A DNA stretch of 64,000 nucleotides. Origin: Dehalococcoidia bacterium. GTDB taxonomy: Bacteria; Chloroflexota; Dehalococcoidia; Bin125. Below, piece after piece: positions 16,048 through 61,887 of this stretch. The DNA is taken from assembly GCA_022825855.1 (NCBI GenBank), contig JAJDWB010000007.1, positions 124,001 to 188,000 of the forward strand, in the 5' to 3' direction. Position 1 is the first letter of the stretch. The number at the start of each line of letters is the position of its first letter. Position numbers and translations under genes: made by a program. The notes beneath the pieces were generated by a model. That model made no database searches. It saw only the letters and a program-made list of their open reading frames with translations, and was not told the origin of the DNA.

Positions 16048-16390
16048 GGGGCTGAATTGCGCGTCCGCTCGCCGGCTGCTCCGCAGCGGGCGGCGTCGCG
16101 ACTGTGATCCTCGATACATCGCCTCCGCTCTGACGAACGTGTGTGCTGATACAATGGACGGTGGCCAACACCGCTGAGCGAACCCGGGAGCGAGTCATGA
16201 ACCCCGCCAAGCCACCCAACATCACCCGACATCACCCGACCTGGGCCGACGTGGCCCTCCCAAATCTGACCTCAGTCAGACAAAATCTGACCGGATCTGA
16301 CCAAATCTGACATCCCCTGGCAAGAATCACCAATCCACAGCACAAAATTCGCCCCAAAACAGAAGAATGGAGTGACTTTTTGACCAGCCG
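16048..16390 (+). other. Intergenic region with a 10-nt periodic repeat, no gene
   Basis: The region separates the flavoprotein gene from convergent purL and has no credible gene. It holds a TACAAT sequence near 16151 and, from 16211 to 16311, a run of 10-nt units ending in -CTGAC or -CCGAC, such as ATCACCCGAC twice and CAAATCTGAC. A 37-codon open frame beginning at 16198 spans the repeat but has no clear ribosome site. It may act as the terminator zone between two convergent operons. Confidence 0.6.
16211..16311 (+). repeat. 10-nt periodic repeat array (copy 1, CAAATCTGAC type)
   Basis: Successive units read ATCACCCGAC, ATCACCCGAC, CTGGGCCGAC, then CAAATCTGAC, CTCAGTCAGA, CAAAATCTGA, CCGGATCTGA and CCAAATCTGA with almost strict 10-base spacing. 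On the complementary strand the core GTCAGATTTG matches the arrays at 55741 and 61451. The plus strand is the C-rich one, which is the sense strand of the upstream flavoprotein operon. Confidence 0.7.
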
Positions 16391-32441: not shown

Positions 32442-33076
32442 GTGCCCGCCGCCTCCTGCCGTTCTTGTCGTTCTTGTCGTTCTTGCCAGAAGCTGCGCCC
32501 GGTCTGGGGATGCGCGACCGCTTCGCCCCAGGTGTCCCAGCCGGGGATCTCGATCTCCCGCGCGAACAGCTCGATCTTGCGCTGCTCGGGGAACATCCTC
32601 TCGATCCTACGCCGAACTTCCGACGGTTTGCGCGAGTGGTCGGCACGAGGCTCGGACACCAGTTGCCGCACGTTGCGCGCGCCGCGGGGCGCGGGAATCC
32701 GGCCGCGCTTGAAGACCAGGCAGAGTTCGCACTGGGACATGGTGTAGAAGCCGGGATTGACGCGCTGCTTGTCCCAGACGAACGCGACCGTGGCCCAGGC
32801 AAAGCCCCAGGCCTTGCCCAGATCGATCGCCTGGTCCAGGTGCGGCGAGGTCGCCCACAAGAAGAGCAGCGAGTCGTCGGCCGCGATCGACGCGACATTG
32901 AGCTGCATCAGATCGTTGAGCCGCACGGTCGGATAGTGGCGGATGGCGCCGCCCGAGTCGCCGCTGCCCGGACCGGCGTGCTGAAGCTGACCCCGGTAGT
33001 CCCAGGGCGGGTCGGCGTAGATGACGCCGTAGCGGTCGTCAGGCGCGGGCGCGGGCAGCGGCGGGAACTTGTCCAA
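32438..33076 (-). CDS. MT-A70 family adenine-N6 methyltransferase
   Basis: 212 residues from a TTG at 33076, set by AGGAG 8 bases upstream. DPPW is at residues 22-25 in VIYADPPWDYRG, followed by LMQLNVASIAADDSLLFLWAT and the SAM-binding pocket; this is the phage/bacterial MT-A70 group that methylates adenine in DNA. C-terminus carries a tandem QER repeat from a 9-bp DNA repeat. First gene of the overlapping operon with the JAMM gene and folPK; no cognate nuclease adjoins it. Confidence 0.88.
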   Translation of the reverse strand: MDKFPPLPAPAPDDRYGVIYADPPWDYRGQLQHAGPGSGDSGGAIRHYPTVRLNDLMQLNVASIAADDSLLFLWATSPHLDQAIDLGKAWGFAWATVAFVWDKQRVNPGFYTMSQCELCLVFKRGRIPAPRGARNVRQLVSEPRADHSRKPSEVRRRIERMFPEQRKIELFAREIEIPGWDTWGEAVAHPQTGRSFWQERQERQERQEAAGT

Positions 33077-33436
33077 GGTCAGCGCTCCTCGTTATGGACA
33101 GCGGAGGAGCCGCCGCGCTGGCGAAACTCGCGGAATTTCTGCTCGGCAAGGCGCGATCTTGCGGCGAGCGCTGAGGATCGTGCTGAATAGCGATCGGACT
33201 TGATCGGTTTTGATCGGTTTTGATCGGATCCGACCGGGTTATGTACGGCAACGCCCAGGCTGGATCGGGAGAGTACGGGTCTGATCGTGGGCACAGGAGT
33301 GGGCTTGACGGTGACCGCGCCGAACGAAGTGACGTGACCTGCTTCAGCGTGTTGACCCGGCACATCCACCTGCTTCCTCGCGATTGACCGGTGTTCTCGC
33401 TGCGCGCTCACCCGAACACGGATACGTACATTCATT
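33077..33436 (-). promoter_or_regulatory. Long leader of the MT-A70 operon with periodic repeats
   Basis: 360 bp without a credible gene; two open frames exist but read straight through the repeat and are not conserved in character. It contains, in the direction of transcription, a 16-bp promoter-like box (33426-33441), about 200 bases without clear features, then the TGATCGGTTT array (33191-33239), then the AGGAG ribosome site before the TTG start. Confidence 0.5.
33191..33239 (-). repeat. 10-nt periodic repeat array (copy 2, TGATCGGTTT type)
   Basis: Blocks CGATCGGACT, TGATCGGTTT, TGATCGGTTT, TGATCGGATC and CGACCGGGTT follow each other at exactly 10 bases. On the sense (minus) strand the unit is AAACCGATCA, placing a pyrimidine-C pair every 10 bases. 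Confidence 0.65.
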
Positions 33437-33441
33437 CTACT
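33426..33441 (-). promoter_or_regulatory. Conserved leader box with TAGAAT -10 (copy 1)
   Basis: On the minus strand the box reads AGTAGAATGAATGTAC. TAGAAT (33434-33439) resembles a -10 element and contains the TAG stop codon of the upstream 130-residue gene. The same 16-mer, with two variable positions, recurs at 55894 and 61612, each time upstream of a 10-nt periodic leader. Confidence 0.55.
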
Positions 33442-52215: not shown

Positions 52216-52658
52216 CTGCAATCTCCGACACTCACGAGATACGCGCACAGAACACAAGTGCGATACGATGTGCAGCAACGGGCGGCGGCGCTTCGTAGCC
52301 CGCATCGGGCAACGATGACGACGGAAGGACCTGAGGCCGTGTCGCACACCCTTGGCTGCGTCCGAACCAGTGCTTCCGCGCGCCGCGGATGGCCGCCCGT
52401 GGTCGCTCAAATCCGAACAGAATCGAACAAACCCGAACACCCGACCAGCCCGGAACAGGCTGAAGAAACCCGAAAAAACCTGAAAAAACCTGAAAGTCCC
52501 GAATTCACGATCTCCAGTAAAACACTGGAGATCGCCGCTGTTTTCCGCGGGTTCGGGCCCCGAAAAAAAATTCACCCAAAAGCTGAAACCGGCCCGCTCC
52601 CGAACAGATCCGCCGCAACTCACTCCCCCCGAACACTGTCCACCCTGGAGATGCAGCC
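52216..52658 (+). promoter_or_regulatory. Leader of gltX with periodic repeats
   Basis: 443 bp with no convincing gene; an open frame from 52258 runs through it into gltX but has no domain character, and its translation changes nature with each repeat unit. Contents in order: a TACGAT -10-like word near 52264, about 140 bases, the 10-nt repeat array, an inverted repeat ATCTCCAGT/ACTGGAGAT near 52510-52535, and a weak GGAG site before the gltX ATG. Confidence 0.5.
52411..52500 (+). repeat. 10-nt periodic repeat array (copy 3, CGAACA/CGAAAAAACC type)
   Basis: Nine consecutive 10-base blocks: ATCCGAACAG, AATCGAACAA, ACCCGAACAC, CCGACCAGCC, CGGAACAGGC, TGAAGAAACC, CGAAAAAACC, TGAAAAAACC, TGAAAGTCCC. 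The unit drifts from CGAACA to GAAAAAACC but the 10-base phase holds. The sense strand is C/A-rich. Confidence 0.65.
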
Positions 52659-55683: not shown

Positions 55684-55740
55684 GTCGGGGAGAAATTTCG
55701 GGGCGGATCGGGGGATGGGGGGTTGCGGGCTGGGAATTTG

Positions 55741-55830
55741 GCTGAATCTTGGTCTGGTTATGTCAGATTTGGTCAGATTTGGGTGAGTGAGGTCAGATTT
55801 GGGTGGGTGAGGCTGGATTTTGTCATGCTC
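55741..55830 (-). repeat. 10-nt periodic repeat array (copy 4, GTCAGATTTG type)
   Basis: Blocks such as TGTCAGATTT, GGTCAGATTT, GGGTGAGTGA, GGTCAGATTT, GGGTGGGTGA follow at 10-base steps. On the minus strand, sense for the CoA transferase at 55683, this is CAAATCTGAC. From 55761 to 55890 I count 58 C and 14 G per 130 bases on that strand. Confidence 0.75.
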
Positions 55831-55893
55831 TGGGTGGCTTTTGCGGGTTCTGGTTGGGTTTCGGTTGGGGGGCTTGGTGCTCGTGGTGGGTCG

Positions 55894-55909
55894 GTACGTT
55901 CATTCTACT
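55894..55909 (-). promoter_or_regulatory. Conserved leader box with TAGAAT -10 (copy 2)
   Basis: Minus strand AGTAGAATGAACGTAC; TAGAAT is 55902-55907. It is 211 bp upstream of the CoA transferase start and precedes the repeat array, matching the boxes at 33426 and 61612. Both 55k and 61k boxes are preceded by CCACCCCTCCG. Confidence 0.6.
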
Positions 55910-55977: not shown

Positions 55978-56394
55978 ATGGGTGAGATTCTCGTGGAGAT
56001 CGAGTTGGAGAACATCGATGACCGTTCGGATGCGCGCCGGGGGCTCATCGCCGAGGCGGACATTCGGCGGGTGACGGTTCGGGCAGTGGCGGACACGGGG
56101 GCGATGATGTTGGCGCTGCCGGAGGATTTGGTGGAGCGGCTGGGCGTTCCCGTTGTGGATTCGATCACCACGACCTACGCCGACGGCCGGCAGGGGGAAC
56201 TGCCGGTGAGCGATGCGCTGTCGATTCGGATTGGGGATCGGCGGATGGCGACTGAGTGCATCGTGGTGCCGGAGGGCGCGGAGGCGCTGGTCGGCGTGTT
56301 GGTGATGGAGCGGCTGGACCTGGTCGCGGACCCGGTCAATCAGACGCTGGGTCCGAGGCCGGAGTCGCCGGATCGGCCGTTGCTGCGGGTGTAG
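55978..56394 (+). CDS. Clan AA retroviral-type aspartic protease
   Basis: 138 residues. The active-site Asp-Thr-Gly lies in VADTGAMMLALPEDL (about residue 40), and a VLVMERLDLVADP stretch follows in the second half, as in single-domain aspartyl proteases of bacteria that act as homodimers. No signal peptide. Downstream half is duplicated at 61687. A weak ribosome site precedes the ATG; the leader box and array to its left belong to the opposite strand. Confidence 0.82.
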   Translation: MGEILVEIELENIDDRSDARRGLIAEADIRRVTVRAVADTGAMMLALPEDLVERLGVPVVDSITTTYADGRQGELPVSDALSIRIGDRRMATECIVVPEGAEALVGVLVMERLDLVADPVNQTLGPRPESPDRPLLRV

Positions 56395-61450: not shown

Positions 61451-61590
61451 GAATCTGGCTGGATTTTGGTCTGGCGATGTCAGATTTGGTCAGATTTGGG
61501 TGGATGAGGGTGGATTTGGGTGGGTGAGGGTGAGTTTTGTCGAGTTTTGGGAGGGTTTTGTGGGTTTCTGTTGGGGGCTTGGGGGTTTTG
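61451..61590 (-). repeat. 10-nt periodic repeat array (copy 5, GTCAGATTTG type)
   Basis: Homologous to 55741-55830: both read GGTCTGG, then GTCAGATTTGGTCAGATTTG, then G/T-rich 10-base blocks such as TGGATGAGGG, TGGATTTGGG, TGGGTGAGGG. On the minus strand, sense for the lipoprotein gene, I count 63 C and only 5 G from 61481 to 61610. Confidence 0.78.
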
Positions 61591-61611
61591 GGTTGGTTGG
61601 TGGTGGTGTTG

Positions 61612-61627
61612 GTACGTTAATTCTACT
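61612..61627 (-). promoter_or_regulatory. Conserved leader box with TAGAAT -10 (copy 3)
   Basis: Minus strand AGTAGAATTAACGTAC; TAGAAT is 61620-61625. It is about 300 bp upstream of the lipoprotein start, in the same order as the 55k copy: box, C-rich leader, repeat, gene. Confidence 0.6.
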
Positions 61628-61686: not shown

Positions 61687-61887
61687 ACGATTCGGATCGG
61701 CGATCGGGAGATGTCGACCGACTGCATCGTCGTGCCGGAGCAGGCCGAGGCGCTGGTCGGGCAGGTCGTGATGGAGACACTGGACCTGGTCGCGGACCCG
61801 CTGAATCAGACGCTGGGTCCGAGGCCGGAATCGCCGGATCGGCCGTTGTTGCGGGTGTTGGGGGGCGGACTGCTTCCGGGCCTCTAG
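61687..61887 (+). pseudogene. Truncated duplicate of the clan AA aspartic protease gene
   Basis: Bases 61687-61863 match 56221-56397 (the last 57 codons of the protease), near-identical over the last 110 bp; ESPDRPLLRV is shared. The N-terminal half with the Asp-Thr-Gly active site is gone, an in-frame TAG lies just upstream near 61672, and the original TAG stop has become TTG, so the frame reads on to a TAG at 61887. The leader region upstream is also duplicated from 55741-55930. Confidence 0.85.

Follow-up and report, generated by a model that had tools for sequence, protein, structure and literature searches.

Tandem arrays of 10-base words in a dispersed unit family of a Dehalococcoidia genus, and their probable connection with a genus-specific HTH protein family

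The genome of this Dehalococcoidia bacterium carries about 30 short chromosomal units with strings of a 10-base word, which have a common anatomy, recur throughout the genome, are linked to genes for HTH proteins, share an operator with these genes and are conserved in position between related species. The arrays are, with fair probability, helix-phased DNA-binding sites for a cognate, genus-specific family of HTH proteins. A protein-DNA site is favoured because of the tandem 10-bp spacing, the invariance of the word, the presence of an HTH gene with the same word, and the persistence of the period in coding sequence; from these features we infer that the array is bound, as DNA, by the HTH protein. 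The words recur within genes of a family of DNA-binding proteins, and the promoter motif in front of them also precedes stray terminase (DNA-packaging) genes of viral type; this points to a coordinated DNA-marking system, probably virus-derived, rather than to ordinary transcription attenuators.

The window, i.e. the whole stretch of 64,000 nucleotides that was analysed, was scanned for self-identity at lags 4 to 25 in 60-nt windows. Lag 10 was the outlier, with four separate peaks of at least 36/60 (at 61480, 52424, 33170 and 16202), while other lags mostly gave 0-1 such peaks over the 64 kb and lag 21 gave three; the lag 20 scan catches 55743 and 61466. Over 29 genomic copies the mean lag-10 identity was 0.50, compared with 0.30 in shuffled sequence, and was still 0.45 with the core removed, so that the 10-base periodic arrays reported in the preliminary description are real. 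That description had also stated that the word differs between loci while the period is the same, which holds for the 33k unit (type G) and the 52k unit (type C/D), both with other words, but not for the 16k, 55k and 61k units, which are homologous and of type A: 55k and 61k have diverged from one element to 78% identity, and 16k, in which the 10-base word is the same, makes a third copy. Its argument that a period of 10 nt, not being a multiple of three, speaks against selection at the peptide level is borne out, since the period persists within ORFs. The features of the five units are as follows.

16135..16155, plus strand: 16k unit (type A), operator GAACGTGTGTGC with -10 ATACAAT (pattern match, G000:C16:140135-140155)
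16117-16232, plus strand: 16k unit, promoter model match (88.8 bits)
16197..16310, plus strand: 16k unit, small ORF of 37 aa ending in the array (Shine-Dalgarno at 16184-16192)
16210..16315, plus strand: 16k unit, decamer array (core TCTGACCAAATCTGACAT at 16296-16313)
16324..16341, plus strand: 16k unit, tail GAATCACCAATCCACAGC (29-copy alignment)
33426-33441, minus strand: 33k unit, 16-mer box, composed of -10-like TAGAAT and the half-site GAATGTAC (exact match)
33191..33236, minus strand: 33k unit, type G array (CCGATCAAAA; same word in HTH gene G000:C3:32180)
52250..52269, plus strand: 52k unit, operator GAACACAAGTGC with -10-like GATACGAT (sequence)
52410..52497, plus strand: 52k unit, type C (AATCGAACAA) and then type D (CCTGAAAAAA) arrays (lag scan, sequence)
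52509..52533, plus strand: 52k unit, tail, perfect inverted repeat GATCTCCAG-N7-CTGGAGATC (sequence; also in L176, L178 and other type C/D units)
55894-55909, minus strand: 55k unit, 16-mer box, TAGAAT followed by GAACGTAC (exact match)
55745..55830, minus strand: 55k unit, type A array (core at 55760-55777)
55721..55740, minus strand: 55k unit, tail CAAATTCCCAGCCCGCAACC (copy alignment)
61612-61627, minus strand: 61k unit, 16-mer box (exact match)
61477..61545, minus strand: 61k unit, type A array (core at 61477-61494)

Several neighbouring sequences were noted at these loci. At 33k, an ORF of 108 codons that follows the box (window 33039-33365, minus strand) spans the array and extends, in another frame, into the beginning of the MT-A70 methyltransferase gene. 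A gene for a clan AA (retropepsin-like) aspartic protease (window 55978-56394, plus strand) and the 55k unit are divergently oriented, and beside the 61k unit there is a decayed copy of this gene (61690-61887); similar aspartic proteases are found beside terS-terL in L214 and L306.

A blast search with the 55k leader gave 35 matches in its own genome, and the aligned copies share an anatomy of about 300 bp: an upstream CGACACA block, the operator-like GAACGTNNGTNC, ATACAAT two bases after it, about 40 nt, the Shine-Dalgarno sequence CAGGAGCG, an ATG, then 10-base words over about 100 nt, and finally the core and a tail resembling GAATTCCCAGCCCACAGC. The Shine-Dalgarno sequence and the ATG are usually present and kept across the aligned copies, and the distance from ATG to core is nearly fixed: most copies have 99-100 nt, and two copies with an additional decamer have 109 nt. 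The core TCTGACCAAATCTGACAT has 29 exact copies in its own genome (G000), none with one mismatch and none in the reversed controls, and a search with 2-3 mismatches retrieved only register-shifted neighbours in the same arrays. A conserved small peptide encoded by the unit ORF was considered and rejected: in the two ortholog pairs that were judged by eye (L057/L067 and L097/L113), the start region is kept and substitutions fall freely on codon positions 1 and 2.

The 16-mer AGTAGAATKAAYGTAC that had been described on the minus strand at 33k, 55k and 61k has exactly these three exact matches in the window, all on that strand, where 0.12 would be expected by shuffling; a fourth copy with one mismatch lies elsewhere on the same contig. 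It is composed of the -10-like TAGAAT followed by the half-site GAACGTAC, and since in the aligned sequences most other units have this half-site upstream of ATACAAT, the 16-mer would mark a promoter variant rather than a separate box. This alternative layout is found in the 55k, 61k and C16:284k copies.

The composition of the arrays is less constant than their phase. On the minus strand of 61478-61607 there are 63 C and 5 G in 130 bases, exactly reproducing an earlier hand count, and the C-G skew of type A units is 0.42-0.49 from -100 to +50 of the core, over array and tail. Most arrays inside HTH genes are also C-rich and G-poor. Type F is the opposite, with G exceeding C (skew -0.29 and -0.47), and because these arrays are G-rich, the invariant of the arrays is the 10-base phase and not C-richness. 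The type F arrays (L318 = G014:C1 and L345 = G000:C14) comprise some 10-12 TTGGACANNN units just downstream of an HTH gene, with the G-rich strand as the sense strand.

The distribution of the units was followed in 15 genomes of one Dehalococcoidia genus, all draft assemblies of uncultured bacteria, with array types assigned by eye from the sequence. Outside its own assembly the core was found in unit context in three Dehalococcoidia bacterium MAGs, and a promoter model built from the copies matched 14 of the 15 genomes, strongly in about half. A type B word (TCTGGACAAA) stands behind the same operator, Shine-Dalgarno sequence and start in G002, G005, G009, G010 and G012, and dispersed type B units occur in G010, G012, G005, G002 and G006; the own genome has 29 A cores and 0 B cores. 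Types C (TCGAACA) and D (CCTGAAAA), often in series, are found in many genomes as well as at 52k. The tail is common to types A, B and C, and units with the D word often have the inverted-repeat tail seen at 52k; types A-D and G all recur in dispersed units. Of the nine G014 cores with no more than one mismatch, five have drifted. Seven of the 13 type A units of sister species are at loci orthologous to units of the own genome, with a flank identity of 77-91%, so that many units are probably inherited rather than freshly inserted.

A viral origin was also sought by sequence and rejected on that ground: the type B word is absent from IMG/VR, and the type A word has a single occurrence there, in a contig where no unit can be recognised. 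The 20-mer AAACCTGAAAAAACCTGAAA of type D matched 43 viral contigs, nearly all through codons that spell the small-terminase motif ENLKKPEI. The word AACCTGAAAAAACCTGAAA of type D corresponds to common codons for the phage small-terminase motif ENLKKPE and matches terS of many unrelated phages (L226-L268); this link to viral terS, though curious, was treated as a codon coincidence.

The connection with HTH proteins came from one of the 29 cores (G000:C20), which lies in frame within an HTH protein of 289 residues, the A-type HTH protein of the own genome (C20:53320). Its homologs form a multi-paralog family present in 10 of the 15 genomes, and nearly all have a decamer array, located either within the coding sequence, in its low-complexity 3' part, or just behind the gene, in sense. 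Lag-10 scores of at least 24/40 were found in 35 of 44 HTH loci vs 5 of 75 control segments of 850 nt from the window, and the arrays were not selected for, because most homologs were found by their HTH region alone. The array types agree with the HTH tree, with 6 changes (6 types, 40 proteins) against a mean of 19.2 after shuffling, an agreement which is partly shared descent, as the array sits in the HTH gene itself. More independent evidence comes from the dispersed units, whose word is that of an HTH gene in their own genome: A cores (29) and no B core in the own genome, B units in G010, G012, G005, G002 and G006, and neither A nor B arrays in the five genomes that gave no HTH match. The type G word at 33k likewise matches the HTH gene C3:32180. 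Counting against the favoured reading, G001 and G014, both draft assemblies, have type A units and no detected A-type HTH gene.

The predicted structure of the HTH protein is confident (pLDDT 86); the HTH takes up residues 10-52, and there are also a linker helix and, at residues 80-129, a helical hairpin. The predicted HTH superposes on the operator-bound domain of DeoR (Z 8.2, rmsd 2.5, 49 residues), and no full-length structural match was found. The TerS fold, which this protein may still have, was not found among the Foldseek matches. The HTH proteins in L329, L334, L337 and L359 end in a CPCGSGxKRKxCH zinc motif (SEC-C-like), located downstream of the array.

HTH genes, array units and stand-alone terminase pairs all have the same operator upstream. 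Together with its -10, and allowing at most one mismatch, GAACNNNNGTNCNNATACAAT gave about 100 matches in 11 of the 15 genomes and 0 in the reversed control; exact GAACNNNNGTNC is located at most 130 nt from the start of 21 of 38 HTH genes (control 0). In the own genome, the sequence before the A-type HTH gene matches the operator only with two mismatches, which counts against the favoured reading. Small proteins with acidic tails are also preceded by the operator, and in one case (L214) the gene of such a protein overlaps that of a large terminase (Pfam Terminase_3 and Terminase_6N; PHROG 2). A large terminase subunit is encoded in 14 of the 15 genomes, in up to a handful of copies, and one terL is duplicated in the own genome, with 93% identity between the two sites (G000:C13 and G000:C14 contig starts). 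Several terS-terL pairs have the same promoter as the array units, and such pairs, seen in nearly every genome, stand alone among host genes with no further phage genes (L214:5795-7589 on the minus strand, L299, L300, L301, L302 and L307). No portal, capsid or tail genes were found beside terL, and no arrays at the scanned terL loci (about 1.5 kb on each side where the contig allows). The model of the small TerL partner has a weak likeness to the oligomerisation core of SPP1-like small terminases (3zqm/3zqn among the weak matches). SOS control by LexA was rejected as a candidate: lexA was found, and GAAC-N4-GTTC is absent from its 3-kb locus.

The preliminary description had proposed Rho-dependent attenuators, in which Rho would load onto a C-rich, G-poor leader transcript at regularly spaced pyrimidine-C pairs and end transcription ahead of the downstream gene, and had named helix-phased protein sites as the alternative. 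Type A and C units do resemble rut leaders in giving C-rich, G-poor, unstructured RNA with regular spacing: the skew extends over array and tail, the units have no RNA structure (mean z +0.21), and a rho gene is encoded in the own genome, so that Rho-dependent termination may take place at individual units. They differ from rut leaders in their inconsistent orientation to neighbouring genes, their occurrence in ORFs, the existence of a G-rich type, and a sequence-specific word matched to an HTH gene. By the calls of a simple, home-made codon-usage gene caller, the next gene has the same sense in 18 of 28 intergenic type A units and is convergent in the other 10, so that the test set in that description, whether the units always lie sense-oriented upstream of genes, goes against Rho attenuators; the preceding genes are split 16 to 12. 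Several co-oriented downstream genes appear from their sequence to have their own promoter near the start, and the unit resembles a transcription unit of its own more than the leader of a downstream gene. The array lies inside the ORF, with at least 25 codons still following, in 38 of 40 typed HTH genes. Because only 18 of 28 units are in sense, type F is G-rich and many arrays are in translated genes, Rho attenuation is not supported, and the exact invariance of an 18-nt word combined with its clade-wise change is not expected of Rho; we consider this explanation very unlikely. The helix-phased protein sites are better supported, every array type being carried by an HTH gene.

Two other explanations would account for part of the same observations. 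The units may be MITE-like non-autonomous repeats, derived from HTH genes or terS-terL pairs by internal deletion and spread by transposition, with the array as no more than an end repeat. The promoter and tail common to units and larger genes agree with this, as does the duplicated terL, but more than half of the sister-species units are at orthologous loci, the core stays exact while the flanks diverge, and the terS-terL ends have no array, which makes such an origin decidedly unlikely. The function could instead be at the RNA level, the HTH protein or another factor binding the repeats in mRNA and the units serving as decoy or sponge transcripts. Here the array is downstream of the promoter and in the same sense in all 29 aligned copies, the Shine-Dalgarno sequence and ATG are conserved, and arrays are in or adjoin HTH genes in sense; against this, the HTH domain matches DNA binders in solved structures, exact 10-nt phasing suits the DNA helix better than single-stranded RNA, and the units have neither RNA structure nor a relevant family in an Rfam search. 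This is the least probable of the explanations considered.

With the arrays as helix-phased DNA sites, each HTH paralog would recognise one 10-bp word, and several protomers would be loaded next to one another on a single helix face. The gene of the HTH protein itself carries an array in or just after its coding sequence, and the dispersed intergenic units, consisting of the operator GAACNNNNGTNC, a -10, usually a Shine-Dalgarno sequence and ATG, the array and the tail, carry the word of the HTH gene and would be controlled together with the HTH genes and the stand-alone terminase pairs via the shared operator. HTH proteins acting on tandem 10-11 bp repeats are known from iterons and phased direct-repeat operators. 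The units are similar to these in having tandem short words at helical spacing and an HTH partner, and differ in the array within the partner's coding sequence, the large dispersed family and the several words per genome.

Phage pac sites offer a second comparison. In SPP1/SF6-type phages, pac comprises direct repeats over about 100 bp, with a promoter, a ribosome-binding site and a start codon, and lies in the gene of the HTH protein that forms the TerS ring, whose DNA-binding domain in SF6 has little sequence specificity (PMC4737164). The units share the direct repeats of about 100 bp with promoter, ribosome-binding site and start codon, the site in the HTH protein's own gene, and terminase genes near in function, here joined by the shared operator. 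They differ in that there are dozens of sites per chromosome and several words per genome, not beside terL, that no capsid genes are seen beside terL, and that the HTH protein is only a candidate TerS. P22 has its pac site within the small terminase gene, as one asymmetric sequence of 22 bp (PMC9611059); the HTH genes likewise have the recognition site within the coding sequence of the putative DNA-recognition subunit, in their case as an array. By this analogy the arrays might act like pac sites, with a TerS-like HTH ring loaded for the terminase in a domesticated or satellite-like packaging system, an attractive possibility that we nevertheless regard as rather doubtful: there is no array beside the scanned terL loci, and of the two candidates the HTH protein has no TerS match and the small TerL partner only a weak one. 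Plain regulation, e.g. a transcription roadblock by the HTH protein, is at least as likely as packaging. The wider proposal of a genus-wide, virus-derived system for packaging or chromosome marking, with co-regulated terminases, a TerS-like HTH family with distinct 10-bp words and dozens of pac-like arrays per genome, we consider unlikely; if it were true, the arrays would allow host DNA to be packaged or cut from defined starting points.

If the HTH proteins bind the arrays, a single genus would provide a natural series of paralogous binders and of the tandem decamer sites that go with them, many of these located within the binder's own coding sequence, and thus a system in which recognition rules and co-evolution could be read. 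The operator shared with stand-alone terminases raises the question of whether some Chloroflexota may possess a chromosomal packaging or gene-transfer system that works on dispersed pac-like sites.
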